This document shows positions 19,474 to 34,657 of a DNA stretch of 35,524 nucleotides, piece after piece. Numbering within the stretch: position 1 is the first letter of the stretch; each line of letters opens with the position of its first letter. The notes beneath the pieces were generated by a model that had not been told where the DNA came from, ran no database searches, and saw only the letters and a program-made list of their open reading frames with translations. This stretch comes from Bacillota bacterium (GTDB lineage Bacteria > Bacillota > Clostridia > Christensenellales > Aristaeellaceae). The translations under genes and the position numbers were made by a program. The stretch is from positions 1 to 35,524 of the forward strand of contig WRGP01000253.1 in assembly GCA_009787135.1 (NCBI GenBank). Reading direction: 5' to 3'.

Positions 19474-19512
19474 TCCCACCATTTGATCCTTAGAAGAAAG
19501 GAGGACAATGCA

Positions 19513-19782
19513 ATGTTCACGCCTAACACACAGCCTGGTTCCACCAATACGCAGAACCAGCAGGGTCAGACCTCCAGCTCCAATTCCAGCACCCACGTCG
19601 TGCCGGAGGCGAAGAATGCTTTGAACAACATGAAGCATGAAATCGCCGGAGAACTGGGGATCAACCTCAAGCAGGGCTACAACGGCGATTTGACCTCGCG
19701 TCAGGCCGGCTACATCGGCGGCTACATGGTCAAGCGCATGATTGAGCAGCAGGAGCGGAGCATGAGCGGCCAACAGTTCTAA
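19513..19782 (+). CDS. Small acid-soluble spore protein, alpha/beta type (second copy, extended N-terminus)
   Basis: VPEAKNALNNMKHEIAGELGINLKQGYNGDLTSRQAGYIGGYMVKRMIEQQE; N-terminal Gln/Ser/Asn-rich extension; AAGGAGG upstream of ATG 19513. Confidence 0.95.
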   Translation: MFTPNTQPGSTNTQNQQGQTSSSNSSTHVVPEAKNALNNMKHEIAGELGINLKQGYNGDLTSRQAGYIGGYMVKRMIEQQERSMSGQQF

Positions 19783-20821: not shown

Positions 20822-21640
20822 TTACGGACCGGCGCCGCCATGGGATTGATTTCCCTCTCCCGCTCCGTTGGGCGAACTTGGATCGGCTGAATCATCCTCG
20901 CGATAATCCCGCTGGCCTTGCTGCCTATGCCGGCCGCCGTTTCGATGCTGCCGCCGGATTTGGTTTCTGATCGCGCCGATTCCACAATGGGTATAATCGT
21001 CAATGTTAGCTTCCGGGGCAAGTGCTTGAAGTTCCAAAAAAGCGAGGTACTTTCCGATGGACATATGATGGCTATGCGCGCTCTTCACGGCCGCTTCGCC
21101 GGCGCTGTTACAATGAACCCGAATGCCAGGGTATATGTCTATAAGGGATTGAACGCGGGAAGTGAGACAATCAATCATTGCCGTATCGCCAGCTTTTGAA
21201 TAAACGGTAAAATCCAAACAATCGCCGCTTTCAAGATAAGGCCGCAAGGCGTCGCTTTTTAATAACGTGTCGATTGCCCGCGTATAGGAAAATCCTTTTA
21301 CCTCCTCAGCTTGTAAAAGCATGGCCGCGTCTTCATGATAGGAAGTCACGGAGATAACCCTCCCAAAACGGTTTACCGACAGTTCAAGGCTCGGGTTCAC
21401 GTCCACGCTGATGAGCGACGTCTCGGTACAATAAAGCCCATATCCCCCGAACGCGGCAAGCACCAAAACAATAAAGCAAGCGGCGGCATAACATACCTCA
21501 AACCCGCGGACGTTGTTTCGCAGCGAGACGACATCGCCTTTTTGCCATCCCGCTTTTGCTTTGACTTCCATAAATTCCCCGCCGTTTTTCATCACAACGG
21601 CCACATTGCCTTTGACTTCCAAAACGATTCCGGTTTTCAT
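20822..21640 (-). CDS. rsgI: RsgI-type anti-sigma factor
   Basis: RsgI_N-like MKTGIVLEVKGNVAVVMKNGGEFMEVKAKAGWQKGDVV; TM; SLISVDVNPSLELSVNRFGRVISV; MSIGKYLAFLELQAL. Start overlaps the sigI stop. Confidence 0.88.
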   Translation of the reverse strand: MKTGIVLEVKGNVAVVMKNGGEFMEVKAKAGWQKGDVVSLRNNVRGFEVCYAAACFIVLVLAAFGGYGLYCTETSLISVDVNPSLELSVNRFGRVISVTSYHEDAAMLLQAEEVKGFSYTRAIDTLLKSDALRPYLESGDCLDFTVYSKAGDTAMIDCLTSRVQSLIDIYPGIRVHCNSAGEAAVKSAHSHHMSIGKYLAFLELQALAPEANIDDYTHCGIGAIRNQIRRQHRNGGRHRQQGQRDYREDDSADPSSPNGAGEGNQSHGGAGP

Positions 21641-22338
21641 TGCCTGTCGCCTCCTTCCGGCAGAAACGCCTGAATTTCCGGATAATCCCCGGACAATATC
21701 ACGGCAATGGCTACAATATACTGCCGGTGCTTTTCCAGCGTCTTTTCAGACAGCTTAAAACGCTCCGCAAGTTCCGCCTTGGGTATCCGGCGAGTTCGGA
21801 GGAATTGTTCCTTCATGGCAACGTCGGAAACTATTTCCCTCGCGATCATCGCGCACTGATTCCTGGATCGTTTTTGCTTGGGACCCATGCCAGCCAAACT
21901 GCTAAACGTAATATTAAACGCCGCCAAACCCGACGCGAGCAACTCAATCTCTTCTGACAATGACGATCGCTTCTGTTCTTTCTCATATTCCCCCTTTGCC
22001 CTGGCCATTTCATCGGGATTTTCCGTTTCCATGTTTTTATCCATACCAAGCGGCACTACCTTTGCGTGATACCGGGCGAGCTTCTTGCCTTCGTCGATCA
22101 GCCTGTTTCGTATACACGCCGCGGCAAAGGGTAAAAAACCTCCCGCATTTTCATCGTATTGCCGGACACAGTTCATAAAAACGGACATGGCGCTGCTCAG
22201 CCTGTCATCAAATTCCATTTGAAAAACCGGAGTTTTTGAAACTTCTTTTTTAATAAAAGGCATATAATCGCCGATCAGCCGGTCCAATTCGGCATTGTCT
22301 GTTTTCGCCTTTTTGAGGCGTGGCCATAAATCGTCCAT
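21637..22338 (-). CDS. sigI: RNA polymerase sigma factor SigI
   Basis: MDDLWPRLKKAKTDNAELDRLIGDYMPFIKKEVSK...DDRLSSAMSVFMNCVRQYDENAGGFLPFAAACIRNRLIDEGKK; C-terminal HTH RRIPKAELAERFKLSEKTLEKHRQYIVAIAVILSGDYP; overlaps rsgI. Confidence 0.88.
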   Translation of the reverse strand: MDDLWPRLKKAKTDNAELDRLIGDYMPFIKKEVSKTPVFQMEFDDRLSSAMSVFMNCVRQYDENAGGFLPFAAACIRNRLIDEGKKLARYHAKVVPLGMDKNMETENPDEMARAKGEYEKEQKRSSLSEEIELLASGLAAFNITFSSLAGMGPKQKRSRNQCAMIAREIVSDVAMKEQFLRTRRIPKAELAERFKLSEKTLEKHRQYIVAIAVILSGDYPEIQAFLPEGGDRQ

Positions 22339-22473
22339 TCCAAATCCTCTCACTATGTAGTATACGGCAAAGCCTCTCCAATACATAGGGAAAAATTTTT
22401 TCATCAGCCCCTATGATATAAAGCGGGCCATCCGTACTTCTATACATGATTTCAATTCGAAAGGACGATTGCC

Positions 22474-26754: not shown

Positions 26755-27861
26755 TTATAGGTGAAACGCCTCTTCAGAGGATATCGTTCCTTCTTTTACC
26801 CGGTACGCGGCTTCATATACCGCGCCGCCCAGGTCGCTCATATGCGTGCAGGTGATCAGGGTCTGCACGTCCCGCATGCGCCGAAGAAGCATTTTGCGCC
26901 GGTTCACGTCCAATTCGCTCATCACGTCGTCGAGGAGCAGGACAGGGCTTTCCCCAATGACCTCCCGCATTACATCCAGCTCCGCCAGCTTCAGGGACAG
27001 AGCCGCGGTCCGCTGCTGCCCTTGGGAAGCGAAGGCGCGCGTGTCATGGCCGCAAAGCGTCATGCGCAAATCATCCCGGTGCGGGCCATGGCTCGTCGTG
27101 CCTCTTCTTACATCCTCTTTGCGCGCGGCGCGCAGCATGTGTAACAACTCCTCCGCGTTTTCCGCGCCGCTTTCATAGGCAAGCGTTAAAATCTCCCGCC
27201 CGCCCGACAGCATGGCATGCGTTTCCCTCGCCGCCTCTTTTAGCGTCTTCACATGGCGCGCGCGGCGTGTGATAACCTCCCCGCCCGCTTCCGCGAGCAA
27301 AGCATCCCACTCGTCAAGCGTTGAAGAAAGGGAACCGGAAGGGTTTGCCATCAAACTTTTCAGCAGCCCATTGCGTTGGTTTAGGGCGCGTATATACCGC
27401 TGCAGCGCATAGAAATAGCCAGGCGACAGCTGTGATATTGCCATATCTAAAAAACGCCTGCGCCCCTCCGGCCCCTCCTTCACCAGGCGAAGATCCTCTG
27501 GGGAAAAGAGCACCGCGTTTACATGACCCATCAATTCACCAAGGCGCGCCGCAGGCGAGCCATTGATCTTGATGACTTTTTTGCGTTTATCCTGCGGAAT
27601 GATCCGTACCGTCACGTCATGCACGCCGTCAAGACGCTCCGCCGTAATGGCCACCTGCGCGAACCTGTCCCCCCAGCGAACCAACTCCTGATCCCTCGCC
27701 GTCCGGCCCGACCGCCCAACACAGCACAGGTAAATCGCCTCAATCAGATTTGTCTTACCCTGCGCGTTCTCCCCATGCAGCACCGTTATGCCTGACGCGG
27801 GCGCAAACGCCGCCTGCGCATAGTTACGAAACCCCGCGAGGCGCATCTCCCGTATGATCAT
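26755..27861 (-). CDS. recF: DNA replication and repair protein RecF
   Basis: MIIREMRLAGFRNYAQAAFAPASGITVLHGENAQGKTNLIEAIYL; ...TSHGPHRDDLRMTLCGHDTRAFASQGQQRTAALSLKLAELDVM; LLLDDVMSELD. Confidence 0.97.
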   Translation of the reverse strand: MIIREMRLAGFRNYAQAAFAPASGITVLHGENAQGKTNLIEAIYLCCVGRSGRTARDQELVRWGDRFAQVAITAERLDGVHDVTVRIIPQDKRKKVIKINGSPAARLGELMGHVNAVLFSPEDLRLVKEGPEGRRRFLDMAISQLSPGYFYALQRYIRALNQRNGLLKSLMANPSGSLSSTLDEWDALLAEAGGEVITRRARHVKTLKEAARETHAMLSGGREILTLAYESGAENAEELLHMLRAARKEDVRRGTTSHGPHRDDLRMTLCGHDTRAFASQGQQRTAALSLKLAELDVMREVIGESPVLLLDDVMSELDVNRRKMLLRRMRDVQTLITCTHMSDLGGAVYEAAYRVKEGTISSEEAFHL

Positions 27862-28968
27862 TTAAGCGGAAAACACGCGCACAGGGAGCGCCAAATATAT
27901 AAACTTATCCCCAAAGGTTGGACATAGCACGCACGGGCTTACGTTGGAATTGAACTTCAGTATAATGTTTTCATCCTCAATCGCGCGCAGCGTATCCGTG
28001 ATGTAGCGCACATTAAAGGCAATATCCAGTTCCCTGCCCTCAAACTCAATGGAAATCTCCTCGCGCACGTCGCCAAGTTCCGCGTTGGACGTAATGAGCA
28101 GCGTGCCTTCCTCCATATGCAGTTTGACCAGGTTATTCTTGCCCTCGCGCGCCATAAGGGAAGCGCGGTCCAGCGCCTCTTCCATATCTTTTTTCGATAC
28201 GATAATGCGCGTCTTCCATTCGCCTGGTAAAATCTGTTTGTAACGAATAAATTCGCCGTCCAGCAGCCTTGCGATGACGCGCGTCGTGCCCATGTCCGCC
28301 ATTAAATGCGACTTTCCCCATACCAGCGATACCATCGCGTCCGTATCCGAAAGGATTCTGGCGATTTCGTTGAGCACCTTGCCCGGCACCACAACGCTCA
28401 GCGCCGGCAGTTCCTGCCCAAAGCTCTCCTTGCGCAACGCCATCCTAAAACCGTCCAACGCCACAATGGACATATCCCCTCCCTCCGCCTCCAGCAAACA
28501 ACCTGTAAGGATGGGGCGCGTTTCATCCGTGGCAATGGCAAAGGTCGAGCGCTGGATCATCTCGCGAAGGTTCGCTTGCGGCATGACAATGGTTTGAGAT
28601 TCTCCCACCTCAGGCAGCGCCGGAAATTCCTCGGCGGGAAGTCCCGCCAGTTTGGTTCTGGAACCCGCGCATTTAATCGAAGCCGCGTTTTGCTCGTTGA
28701 CGGAAACCTCCATCTGCCCTTCCGGAAGCTTGCGTACGATTTCCGCAAGCAGCTTGCCGGGCATCACCACGCTGCCTTCCTCGGTAACATGCGCCGCCAC
28801 ATGCGTTTCAATCCCAAGCGCCAGATCCGTGCAGGTAAGCCTGATGCCTTCTTCACATGAAACCAGCAGGACCCCTTCCATGATCTGTGTCGTTGACCGC
28901 GCGGCAATCGCCCTTGTCACGATGTTCAACGCGGAGACTAAATCGGCGACCAGACAAGTAAAGCGCAT
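27862..28968 (-). CDS. dnaN: DNA polymerase III subunit beta (sliding clamp)
   Basis: MRFTCLVADLVSALNIVTRAIAARSTTQIMEGVLL...; ends ...VSPCVLCPTFGDKFIYLALPVRVFSA; directly abuts recF. Confidence 0.97.
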   Translation of the reverse strand: MRFTCLVADLVSALNIVTRAIAARSTTQIMEGVLLVSCEEGIRLTCTDLALGIETHVAAHVTEEGSVVMPGKLLAEIVRKLPEGQMEVSVNEQNAASIKCAGSRTKLAGLPAEEFPALPEVGESQTIVMPQANLREMIQRSTFAIATDETRPILTGCLLEAEGGDMSIVALDGFRMALRKESFGQELPALSVVVPGKVLNEIARILSDTDAMVSLVWGKSHLMADMGTTRVIARLLDGEFIRYKQILPGEWKTRIIVSKKDMEEALDRASLMAREGKNNLVKLHMEEGTLLITSNAELGDVREEISIEFEGRELDIAFNVRYITDTLRAIEDENIILKFNSNVSPCVLCPTFGDKFIYLALPVRVFSA

Positions 28969-29177
28969 GTGTTCATCCTCCTTGCAGACGAAGTTATAGT
29001 AAGAGTAGCCGTAGTAGTAGGGCTGTTCAAAACCTTGAAAACTTCAGAAAAAGGGTTTTGACGTATGTTTTTCCTGTGCGTTTCTCGGGCATAACAAGGA
29101 ATAAAGGCAACCTTTTAAATCAGCATAGAATTCGCTAAGAAAATCATAATTCCTGCAAACGGTAAAGTTCCGCGCTG

Positions 29178-29207
29178 TTTACAATTCTATGGAATTGGGT
29201 ATATAAT
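29178..29207 (+). promoter_or_regulatory. Putative promoter of the DUF1858 gene
   Basis: TTTACA (29178-29183), 18-nt spacer, TATAAT (29202-29207). Confidence 0.65.
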
Positions 29208-29240
29208 AACGAAAAAGGAAAAGCGGTAGGGGGATGTATC

Positions 29241-29450
29241 ATGGCGAACGTGGACAAATCCATGACCATACGACAGGTGCTGGAGGTTAACCGCGGGACG
29301 GCGCAAATTATGATGGGCTTTGGCATGCATTGTTTGGGGTGCCCGCACGCGAGCATGGAGACGCTGGAAGAGGCGGGCGTCACGCACGGTATCGATGTAG
29401 AGGAAATGGTACGGCAGATCAATGTGTTTTTGGAAGGGAAACAGGCGTAG
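29241..29450 (+). CDS. DUF1858 domain protein (hybrid-cluster-protein-associated redox disulfide type)
   Basis: MANVDKSMTIRQVLEVNRGTAQIMMGFGMHCLGCPHASMETLEEAGVTHGIDVEEMVRQINVFLEGKQA; conserved HCLGCPHASMETLEEA. Confidence 0.9.
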   Translation: MANVDKSMTIRQVLEVNRGTAQIMMGFGMHCLGCPHASMETLEEAGVTHGIDVEEMVRQINVFLEGKQA

Positions 29451-29490
29451 GCTGTGGAAAAAAGAAAGGAAGGATGAAAAAAGAAGGAAG

Positions 29491-29680
29491 TTATCCACAA
29501 AAACAAGAGTTTTGTGAATAACTCTGTGGATAAACGTGGATAACTTTTTTGGTTCTTTTTTTCCAATTCATTTTTTCCTCCGCGCCAACGCTTTTGCGGC
29601 AGGTTTGCATCCACAAGGAAAAGTTCACATTGTCCACAAAGCTTATCGGGTAGTAAAGAAAAAAAAAGTAAAAAAAATTT
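29491..29680. other. Candidate replication origin (oriC): DnaA-box cluster plus AT-rich tract
   Basis: TTATCCACA (29491-29499, +); TGTGAATAA (29513-29521, - strand TTATTCACA); TGTGGATAA (29525-29533, - strand TTATCCACA); CGTGGATAA (29535-29543, one mismatch); TTGTCCACA (29630-29638, one mismatch). Flanked by A/T-rich runs at 29544-29577 and 29651-29680; close to dnaN-recF. Confidence 0.85.
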
Positions 29681-29774
29681 TGAGAGATGGGATGAAAAAG
29701 GAAATGTGCCGCGTTTATATGGATGAAGTTCAAAAGCGCGCCAAAAGGATCCCCTCCCTTGCGGTGCATGGCCG

Positions 29775-29806
29775 CCCCCTGTGCGCAGGGGGTTTTTTAT
29801 TTTTTT
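29775..29806 (+). terminator. Rho-independent terminator
   Basis: CCCCCTG TGCG CAGGGGG followed by TTTTTTATTTTTTT. Confidence 0.85.
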
Positions 29807-29852
29807 GTGGTACACTCGTCAAACTCATAAAAAAAGCAAAGGGTGATTCGAT

Positions 29853-30911
29853 TTGATTACATCTGCTTCCATGGGAAACCTTCCGTGCGGCACGGAGGTA
29901 AGGGCGTTTACCCTTCAAAACGCGTCCGGCGCTTCTATGAAGGTTTCCTCGCTGGGCGGTTGCCTGCTGTCCATCGTTGTGCCCGATCAAAAAGGCCGTC
30001 TCTCCGACGTTACGCTGGGATATCCCGCGCTGGAAACCTTGGCGCAGGCAGGCGGGTACATGGGTTTTCTCATCGGCCGCTTTGGCAACCGCATCGGAGG
30101 CGCGCAATTTGAACTAAACGGCAAAACGTATGCCCTGGCGAAAAATGACGGAGAAAACCATCTTCACGGCGGGCTTAAAGGGTTTGATAAGCGCGTATGG
30201 GGCGCGGAAATCAAGGGAGATACCCTTGCGCTTACCCTGCGCAGCCCGGACGGGGAAGAAGGATACCCCGGCACGCTGGATGTTACCGTTACCTATTCCT
30301 TTTCTGACGAAAACACGCTGGGCATTCGCTACGAAGCGGTTTGCGATCAGGACACCGTTCTTAACCTGACAAACCATGTGTATTTTAACCTGTCCGGTCC
30401 AGACTGCCAGACGCTGGACAGCCATGAGATCCTGATCAACGCGGATGCTTTTACCGAGGTATCCAGCCCCGCGTGCATTCCCACGGGCAGGCTTGCCCCC
30501 GTGGAAGGGACGCCGCTGGACCTGCGCGCGTTCCGCAACATTGGGGAAGGGCTTGCCCTTGAAGAGCGGGATACGCAGATGCGGTATGGCGGAGGATATG
30601 ATCATAATTTTGTCCTGCGCGGCTGGGATCAGACGCTTCGCCAAGCGGCAATCGTGCGCGACAAAGCCACGGGCCGCCGCCTGGAGACATGGACGGATCA
30701 GCCCGGCGTTCAGTTCTATTCGGGCAATTTCATCAAAGACGACAGGCCGGGCAAGTGCGGGCCGCCATACCGCAGGCGCCAGGGCTTTTGCCTGGAAACG
30801 CAGCACTACCCCGATAGCGTTCATCATCAAAACTTTCCCACTTGCGTGCTGAGAAAAGGAGAAAAGTATGAGACGGTGACGGAGTATCGGTTTTCGGCGG
30901 AAGCGTTCTAA
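29853..30911 (+). CDS. galM: Aldose 1-epimerase (galactose mutarotase)
   Basis: GGYMGFLIGRFGNRIGGAQFELNGKTYALAKNDGENHLHGGLKGFDKRVW; LNLTNHVYFNLSG; GYDHNFVL; CLETQHYPDSVHHQNFP. TTG start as listed; ATG at 29871 is an alternative. Confidence 0.94.
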   Translation: MITSASMGNLPCGTEVRAFTLQNASGASMKVSSLGGCLLSIVVPDQKGRLSDVTLGYPALETLAQAGGYMGFLIGRFGNRIGGAQFELNGKTYALAKNDGENHLHGGLKGFDKRVWGAEIKGDTLALTLRSPDGEEGYPGTLDVTVTYSFSDENTLGIRYEAVCDQDTVLNLTNHVYFNLSGPDCQTLDSHEILINADAFTEVSSPACIPTGRLAPVEGTPLDLRAFRNIGEGLALEERDTQMRYGGGYDHNFVLRGWDQTLRQAAIVRDKATGRRLETWTDQPGVQFYSGNFIKDDRPGKCGPPYRRRQGFCLETQHYPDSVHHQNFPTCVLRKGEKYETVTEYRFSAEAF

Positions 30912-32620: not shown

Positions 32621-34657
32621 CTACTTCAAATTCAACCCTTCTATCGCGTTTTCCTGCAAGATTCTGCGCTTTTCGTCAGGAAGCAGCGCGCCCCAGCCCG
32701 GGTATTCGGGCGCGGCGCTTTCAAAGGCAAGGCCAAAGGCGATGGTATCGCCCGTGTTGCGCACCGCGCCGTCTTCAAAGCGTATGGCCGCTAAGGCAAG
32801 GCGGACGAGAGGTTCCAGCGGCGCTTGATCTGACACGCATATTGCGTAGTCGCAAACATCCAGCGTTTGCGCGAAGCGCTCGGCGGTCACCCGCAGCAGC
32901 AGCGCGCAGGGATGGGTGGGCACCGCGGCCCTGATCGTGCCCAGCATCGCGTTTTCCGGCACGCTGTCATACCGAACCTGCGTCATGACACGTCCGTCCG
33001 GCTCGTATAGGCACGCGCGTACGGTGATAGGGCCCGGCGCCGCTTCCTCGCACAGCAGGAACAGCTCCGCCTCAAACAGCGCGCCATAGGAAAAGCTCAT
33101 GCTGGTCAGGCGCGCGCATGCGTGCAGGGGCCGCAGCGCGCTTTCAAGTGCCCGACAGGCGGGCCGTGGCGCGTCTCCGTCCAGCAGCGCGCCGCTATAG
33201 AGCGATACCGGCCACGTAAGCGCCTTCCCCACAAAGATGCCCGCCGCCTTTGCCACGCGTGCCCGCTCCGCCGCCTGCCGAAGGGTTTCGGCCTGAAGAA
33301 ACCGCAGAAACCGCACGGCAAACCGCGGGTCTGCACACTCCGCGCCGGTCCATTCGCGCAGGGTGTTACGATCAGGCGCCCCCTCGGCGTTGTGCTTCCA
33401 TAGGGGCGTATCCGGAGGCCAGTAACGCAATACGCCGGAGATGCCTTCCGGATCCCGCGAAAGCGCCGCGCACGCTACGGCGCATAAATTTCCATCCGTC
33501 ACGGGCGCCCCGGCGAAAAGGCTTTCCGGCCCCCATACGGCGGGCGCGTGCCCGATAAGCGGATGCGCGCCGTCTTGCGCTTCCGCCAACGCCTGTAATA
33601 CCCCGGCGCTCGCTTCATTTTCCAGTCCGTAGCCAACCAGCGACGGCCGGTGGCGCACGTGCCGAAGAACCGAAAGCGCCTCCCCGGCATCTGCCGGCAG
33701 CATAGGCAACAGCCAAAACCCTTCGCGGTCCAGCGTTTCGTAAAACGCGTCCGTTTGAAGGCCATACACCCGGAGGCAGTTGACCCGCGCCGTGCGAAGC
33801 CGCGCGAGCGCGGGGATGAGGGCGTCCTCTGGCAGTGGCGGCGCCTGGGGGGCGGACCAATCCGCGCCGACGAGGAATGGCCGCCGGCCAGTCCGCTCGT
33901 CCGCAAATCCGGTACGCAGCACGCGGTTGTCGCAAACCGTGCCGGCGCGCGTCACCGTCAGCCGGAGCAGTACAGGCTTGTTCGGCACGCCAACGCTCCA
34001 CCGGCAGGGTACCGGTAAGATCATCTCGTGCCTGAGCGTGGTGCGCGCGGCATGAAGCTGCTCCGTCGCTTCCTGTATGCCGAGCGTCTCCTCGCCCCAT
34101 AGGGCGGCGTAGCGAAATGTATACCGCCCCGGCACGTACGGCAGCACCGTGGGTTTCAGCGCGATCGTGCCATACCCGTCGCAGCCGAGGGGTTGCGCGT
34201 GCAAGTCGCATATTTTCAGCTGGCTTACGCCGCGCAGACAAAGTTCCCCGTCAATCCCCGCGCGCGCCTGGGGTGGCTGACCACAGGGCGGCTCGGGGTC
34301 GAACGCCAGCGCGAGCTCGCAGGCATCCCGCCCAGCCGCCTGCGCGGTGATCTCCGTCTCCCAGTCTCCGGCCGCAAATCGCGCCGTCGGCAGCCCGTCC
34401 ACGCGCAGCCATCCGCGGCCGCGCACGCCCGAGGCGTGGAGAAAAACGCGCTCGGCCTTCAGATGAGCAAGGGAAACATGCCCCACAAGCGACCAGGACC
34501 GCAGGGAGATCCATTCGTTCGCGCGGCTGTTTACCCCTATGCCCGGGTTCACCGCCAGGCCGGAGGCTAAGAGGATGTCCAAAAGACGGCCGGGGAGCGC
34601 CGCGGGAAAAGTATACCCGGCGCCTTGCCATGTCAGGTCGGTCAGCGTAAAAGGCAT
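32621..34657 (-). CDS. Glycoside hydrolase family 2 / beta-mannosidase-like protein, divergent
   Basis: NCLRVYGLQTDAFYETLDREGFWLLP; RHRPSLVGYGLENEAS; FLQAETLRQAAERARVAKAAGIFVGKALTWPVSLYSGALLDGDAPRPACRALESALRPL follows the GH2 beta-mannosidase layout. Confidence 0.65.
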   Translation of the reverse strand: MPFTLTDLTWQGAGYTFPAALPGRLLDILLASGLAVNPGIGVNSRANEWISLRSWSLVGHVSLAHLKAERVFLHASGVRGRGWLRVDGLPTARFAAGDWETEITAQAAGRDACELALAFDPEPPCGQPPQARAGIDGELCLRGVSQLKICDLHAQPLGCDGYGTIALKPTVLPYVPGRYTFRYAALWGEETLGIQEATEQLHAARTTLRHEMILPVPCRWSVGVPNKPVLLRLTVTRAGTVCDNRVLRTGFADERTGRRPFLVGADWSAPQAPPLPEDALIPALARLRTARVNCLRVYGLQTDAFYETLDREGFWLLPMLPADAGEALSVLRHVRHRPSLVGYGLENEASAGVLQALAEAQDGAHPLIGHAPAVWGPESLFAGAPVTDGNLCAVACAALSRDPEGISGVLRYWPPDTPLWKHNAEGAPDRNTLREWTGAECADPRFAVRFLRFLQAETLRQAAERARVAKAAGIFVGKALTWPVSLYSGALLDGDAPRPACRALESALRPLHACARLTSMSFSYGALFEAELFLLCEEAAPGPITVRACLYEPDGRVMTQVRYDSVPENAMLGTIRAAVPTHPCALLLRVTAERFAQTLDVCDYAICVSDQAPLEPLVRLALAAIRFEDGAVRNTGDTIAFGLAFESAAPEYPGWGALLPDEKRRILQENAIEGLNLK

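Follow-up and report, generated by a model that had tools for sequence, protein, structure and literature searches.

The origin of Clostridioides difficile is bipartite, with the order oriC1-dnaA-oriC2, and opening at its DnaA-trio, 5'-CACCTACTACTATTACTACTATGA-3', located directly before dnaN, needs both DnaA-box regions (PMC7561715). In Bacillus subtilis, the basal unwinding system (BUS) follows the order box, GC-rich spacer and DnaA-trio (PMC8287927, PMC6669920). The gene context of origins is not universally conserved (PMC4285127). In Escherichia coli, oriC is not next to dnaA and the initiator acts in trans from afar. Among the Firmicutes, the rule is generally taken to be that dnaA is linked to the origin, and it serves both for locating origins and for choosing base 1 of the chromosome.

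We have analyzed a contig of 35.5 kb (C253, called here the window) that belongs to a draft MAG of 2,146,559 bp in 254 contigs, 84% complete. Our analysis indicates that the region between ~28,990 and 29,650 is very likely the chromosomal replication origin of an uncultured Christensenellales-type Clostridia bacterium, made up of a DnaA-box array plus a DnaA-trio and served by DnaA in trans. A previous sequence-only reading had proposed a chromosomal origin here with dnaA relocated. Skew and parS in relatives, the boxes at dnaA and synteny support that core, but the unwinding element is probably beside dnaN and not in the box cluster. The locus resembles that of C. difficile in having a DnaA-trio directly before dnaN (PMC7561715) and a further DnaA-box cluster some way off, with a gene in between. 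However, in C. difficile the gene between both parts is dnaA, whereas the window has a DUF1858 gene there and dnaA is elsewhere, and the window's box beside the trio is degenerate. With the oriC/BUS of B. subtilis it shares DnaA box(es), a GC-rich spacer and a trio upstream of dnaN (PMC6669920, PMC8287927), although in that species dnaA is linked and forms part of a bipartite origin. The separation from dnaA is a similarity to E. coli, whose origin nevertheless lies in another gene context, while the one in the window was kept with dnaN when dnaA left. Our verdict is a real origin from which dnaA is unlinked, made of ordinary parts in an unusual arrangement that a clade has in common; searches of open-access papers turned up no description of it for the order.

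Gene context and sequence elements upstream of dnaN

The features of the region, with their positions in the window, are the following:

26755-27861, minus strand: recF, abutting dnaN (SMC_N/AAA_23 matches and position)
27862-28968, minus strand: dnaN, DNA polymerase III beta clamp
28994-29020, minus strand: DnaA-trio-like repeat CTACTACTACGGCTACTCTTACTA within the dnaN leader, proposed as the place of unwinding, with the top BUS-like score in the window
29021-29032, minus strand: degenerate DnaA box TTTTGAACA and spacer GCC beside the trio, three mismatches to TTATCCACA
29241-29450, plus strand: gene of a small DUF1858 protein, between box cluster and dnaN (Pfam PF08984, E 8e-18)
29453-29461, minus strand: DnaA-box-like TTTTCCACA
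29491-29499, plus strand: perfect DnaA box TTATCCACA, its offsets to the next two boxes being the same in the sister species
29513-29521, minus strand: DnaA box TTATTCACA, one of three exact TTATNCACA sites
29525-29533, minus strand: perfect DnaA box TTATCCACA, an exact TTATNCACA site
29535-29543, minus strand: DnaA box TTATCCACG, one mismatch
29540-29579: A/T-rich low-stability stretch by the box array, possible alternative unwinding site, ranking with the window's 12 least stable stretches of 40 bp
29630-29638, plus strand: DnaA box TTGTCCACA, one mismatch
29650-29689: A/T-rich low-stability stretch, fourth lowest in stability of the window's 40-bp stretches
29853-30911, plus strand: aldose 1-epimerase gene, across the boxes from dnaN

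The five boxes already reported were found again at the same positions by motif counting in the window, and the one at 29453-29461 is a sixth that had been missed. The window has three copies of exact TTATNCACA where 0.60 would be expected, a count that none of 100 shuffles attains, and 16 of TTATCCACA with one mismatch against 4.06 expected; it has the above-chance cluster of DnaA boxes that is looked for in an oriC. Only at 29,491-29,533 do three of the 29 exact boxes in the whole assembly fall within 43 bp. This is also the sole place with pairs at 30 bp or less, same-strand or facing, the next closest pair of exact boxes being 55 bp apart on another contig (C192). In the alignment with G001, a sister species of the same genus, the box module has identical offsets (the next two boxes being 22 and 34 bp away from the first) and is likewise found beyond the DUF1858 gene. 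The boxes had been described as standing near dnaN, and they do lie ~0.5 kb beyond the trio, but the DUF1858 gene in between, which is also present upstream of dnaN in G001 and G054, had been overlooked. The remaining context was as the sequence-only reading gave it, with the aldose epimerase across the boxes, dnaN and recF abutting by their coordinates without an S4 gene between them (to which we give little weight) and, a minor point, no gyrB after recF. We found a mannitol dehydrogenase in that place. Searching the window against Rfam produced no match. The A/T-rich run at 29650-29689 adjoins the last box and is followed near 29780 (~29770-29805) by a GC-rich hairpin with a T run that, from its sequence, looks like a terminator.

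When the window was scanned for the BUS order, with 30 shuffled windows as control, the trio element reached the highest score of the 35.5 kb (16.18, the shuffled maximum being 11.97). On the minus strand TTTTGAACA-GCC-CTACTACTACGGCTACTCTTACTA reproduces the succession box, GC-rich spacer and DnaA-trio. The repeat reads CTA CTA CTA CGG CTA CTC TTA CTA TAA, and the three or more trio motifs (NAN on the bound strand) that define a BUS are there, as CTA three times, CGG, CTA, CTC, TTA and CTA. The published rule also asks for a DnaA box with at most two mismatches within 16 bp of the trio (PMC8287927). In the sister species there is a box within this limit, TTTTCCACG with two mismatches, beside AAATCAACA, with three; in the window the best box, TTTTGAACA, has three and its neighbour four. 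Since the adjacent box has three mismatches, the element of the window is BUS-like and not a BUS under the rule of PMC8287927.

The origin might be located here and yet melt in the A/T-rich stretches 29,540-29,579 or 29,650-29,689, leaving the trio as a relic or a leader element of dnaN. The dnaN leader is more stable than either of them, and the degenerate box beside the trio in the window species goes in the same direction. However, neither A/T-rich stretch is conserved in the sister species, where the 19-bp core of the trio, CCGTAGTAGTAGGGCTGTT, is identical except for one edge column within diverged surroundings. The trio also holds its position before dnaN across the family: of 28 dnaN loci, whether canonical or unlinked, 21 have their best trio site no more than about 600 bp upstream of the gene. 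No convincing trio was found at the dnaN loci of G005 (L083, C110), G010 (L084, C53), G011 and G013 (L085, C132). We consider melting in the A/T-rich stretches improbable, although it is the main alternative, and it is probably the trio at ~28994-29032 beside dnaN that unwinds and not the box cluster at 29.5 kb.

Separation of dnaA from dnaN

The absence of dnaA from the window, pointed out from its open reading frames, was confirmed: in the assembly, matches to the DnaA domain are found only on contigs C42 and C188. The first of them (3,522 bp) carries the sole full dnaA gene, which ends 64 bp before the contig does. The match on C188 was considered as a second dnaA and rejected, as it fits an IstB/DnaC-like ATPase equally well. 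A denser group of boxes beside dnaA would have spoken for an origin there; upstream of the gene on C42 there is a single perfect box, without any cluster. The window thus departs from the canonical dnaA-oriC-dnaN cluster, in which dnaA is adjacent to dnaN. This separation is independent of the broken end of C42, because the 6.5 kb beyond the upstream side of dnaN are without dnaA.

In a draft MAG of 254 contigs, with dnaA close to the end of such a short contig, the separation could be an artefact of assembly or binning, either a chimeric C253 or a foreign C42. However, G001 is the nearest relative both for DnaA from C42 (72% identity) and for DnaN from the window (71%), and misbinning of C42 is disfavoured by this shared relative at similar identity. 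Besides, the same arrangement on the dnaN side is found in G001 on a contig of 93.6 kb, and dnaA is far from dnaN in the single-contig genomes G178 and G200. An artefact is hardly credible under these circumstances.

The comparison of synteny confirmed that the unlinking of dnaA is common to one whole clade and not an oddity of one genome. An alignment scan for DnaN found relatives (a scan of contigs with a single DnaN protein found none), the named ones among them including Candidatus Onthenecus intestinigallinarum, Candidatus Ventricola, Candidatus Faecaligallichristensenella and Candidatus Limiplasma. These names, with the genome sizes, suggest that the organism belongs to Christensenellales and that genus g43 may be linked to Aristaeella. 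In a tree of 43 genomes built on DnaN plus DnaA, the 22 sampled family members with unlinked dnaA, without exception, form one clade (support 100/98), and all 10 linked, canonical members form its sister clade (99/96). Within this sample, and judging from these sequences, one ancestral unlinking would suffice for the family. Repeated departures of dnaA within the family were rejected, as one clade holds every sampled unlinked member; some order-level outgroups were unlinked independently in the same tree. The distance between dnaA and dnaN in the unlinked genomes goes from 38 kb to 1.4 Mb. It is 38-47 kb in genus g42 and 1.2-1.4 Mb in four genomes of genus g43, where dnaA is found at ~74-78% of the half-chromosome from dnaN (three genomes with known main-contig size).

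The unlinked dnaA is often accompanied by partition genes. Both parA and parB adjoin it in G005, G008, G010 and G016, and parA in G012; therefore it was a block of genes that moved away, parS remaining at the origin. By locus, parA is found by the unlinked dnaA at L076, L081, L103, L107 and L104, with parB in all but L104. Partition genes and parS are thus far apart in several genera, with parA beside dnaA and parS near dnaN. Unlinked dnaA genes also have often from one to three perfect boxes upstream, as in G001 (C101), G013, G020 and G178, which suggests that autoregulation of dnaA may persist from boxes kept upstream.

Skew and parS at dnaN in relatives

GC skew had been proposed as a check of the origin and we have carried it out through relatives, sampling three genomes of the same clade, finished or nearly so, in stretches of 20 kb (4 kb for the switch of G042). 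In all three the switch from minus to plus falls inside the dnaN sample, while dnaA is within an arm. In G178 (one contig of 3,390,518 bp) the skew stays negative between ~1.05 Mb and dnaN, at 2.744 Mb, and turns positive beyond it, the halves of the dnaN sample giving -0.050 and +0.060, with dnaA at 1.423 Mb. In the 3,260,197-bp contig of G106 the switch is in the dnaN sample at 1.67 Mb (-0.078 and +0.072) and dnaA is at 0.458 Mb. G042 (contig of 3,971,881 bp) switches at 60-64 kb, the place of dnaN, with dnaA 47 kb off in one arm and the terminus near 2.0-2.2 Mb. The skew minimum is at dnaN or within a few kb in G015 and G016, and G001 has a broad trough at 51-67 kb, with dnaN at 55 kb. In the window, with a right flank of only 6 kb, the lowest point of the cumulative skew is at 34,556, close to the end of the contig and not at 29 kb, and the minus-strand genes to the right of the boxes do not show a positive skew at fourfold sites.

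Exact parS sites give the same location, being found 1-26 kb from dnaN in eight relatives: 1.3-2.8 kb in G178, G147, G106 and G200, 6-9 kb in G008 and 22-26 kb in G042, G001 and G016. In G015 they are on a different contig (C5) from dnaN. None was found at the examined dnaA loci of unlinked genomes, nor in the 84% complete assembly to which the window belongs.

DnaA-titration and regulatory sites, such as datA and the DnaA-box clusters of B. subtilis, offer a model for another reading, in which the array is a site of this kind that is near dnaN by chance and the origin is elsewhere, for example by the dnaA on C42. It could draw on the 0.5 kb and the gene that separate the array from the trio, and on the many unlinked relatives with one to three perfect boxes upstream of dnaA. 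However, the scan for the BUS order found no convincing trio-like site at the promoters of unlinked dnaA genes, skew and parS indicate dnaN in the relatives, and the dnaA on C42 has just one perfect box. This makes an origin by dnaA very unlikely. The sole trio-like exception near a dnaA is in G021 (C31, L109, ~8798), at the contig end, 2 kb from dnaA and facing off the contig. No dnaN was found in this genome; it is probably on a missing contig.

Proposed initiation and its consequences

Taking the origin to be at dnaN, we infer that the copy in the window is active. DnaA produced from the gene on the other contig would act in trans and bind the predicted sites of the array (29,453-29,638), and a DnaA filament would then open the duplex at the DnaA-trio directly upstream of dnaN. 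Array and trio, ~0.5 kb apart across the DUF1858 gene, probably cooperate by looping, by analogy with oriC1 and oriC2, which do so over dnaA in B. subtilis and C. difficile. Both the looping and the order of events, including which element melts first, are what we infer from the arrangement.

A wider scenario can be put forward tentatively, and we hold it for possible rather than probable. The bipartite origin of one family clade would have expelled dnaA once, together with parA-parB in several genera, and the gene would have wandered, at the farthest, into the terminal third of the chromosome; the unwinding element, parS and dnaN would not have moved from the origin. The DUF1858 gene would have replaced dnaA as the looped spacer in the genus of the window. 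If this expulsion is true, the dosage of the initiator no longer climbs with each initiation, and the timing of initiation would therefore be controlled otherwise than in Bacillus-type Firmicutes.

For this large gut clade, a rule based on dnaA misplaces the origin by up to 1.4 Mb; in the unlinked clade it is the trio element plus dnaN, and not dnaA, that marks it. The two sister clades, which differ in whether the origin has dnaA beside it, represent a natural experiment on the reasons for which dnaA generally remains there, such as dosage, cis autoregulation and origin looping.

Two other genes of the window may be mentioned. At 19483-19782 (plus strand) there is an alpha/beta-type small acid-soluble spore protein (Pfam SASP, E 7e-28), a match that suggests spore-forming ability or ancestry in this lineage. 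At 20822-22404 (minus strand) an RsgI-like anti-sigma factor (RsgI_N, RsgI_M) is encoded, overlapping the gene upstream, which has no Pfam match and may be its SigI-type sigma factor.
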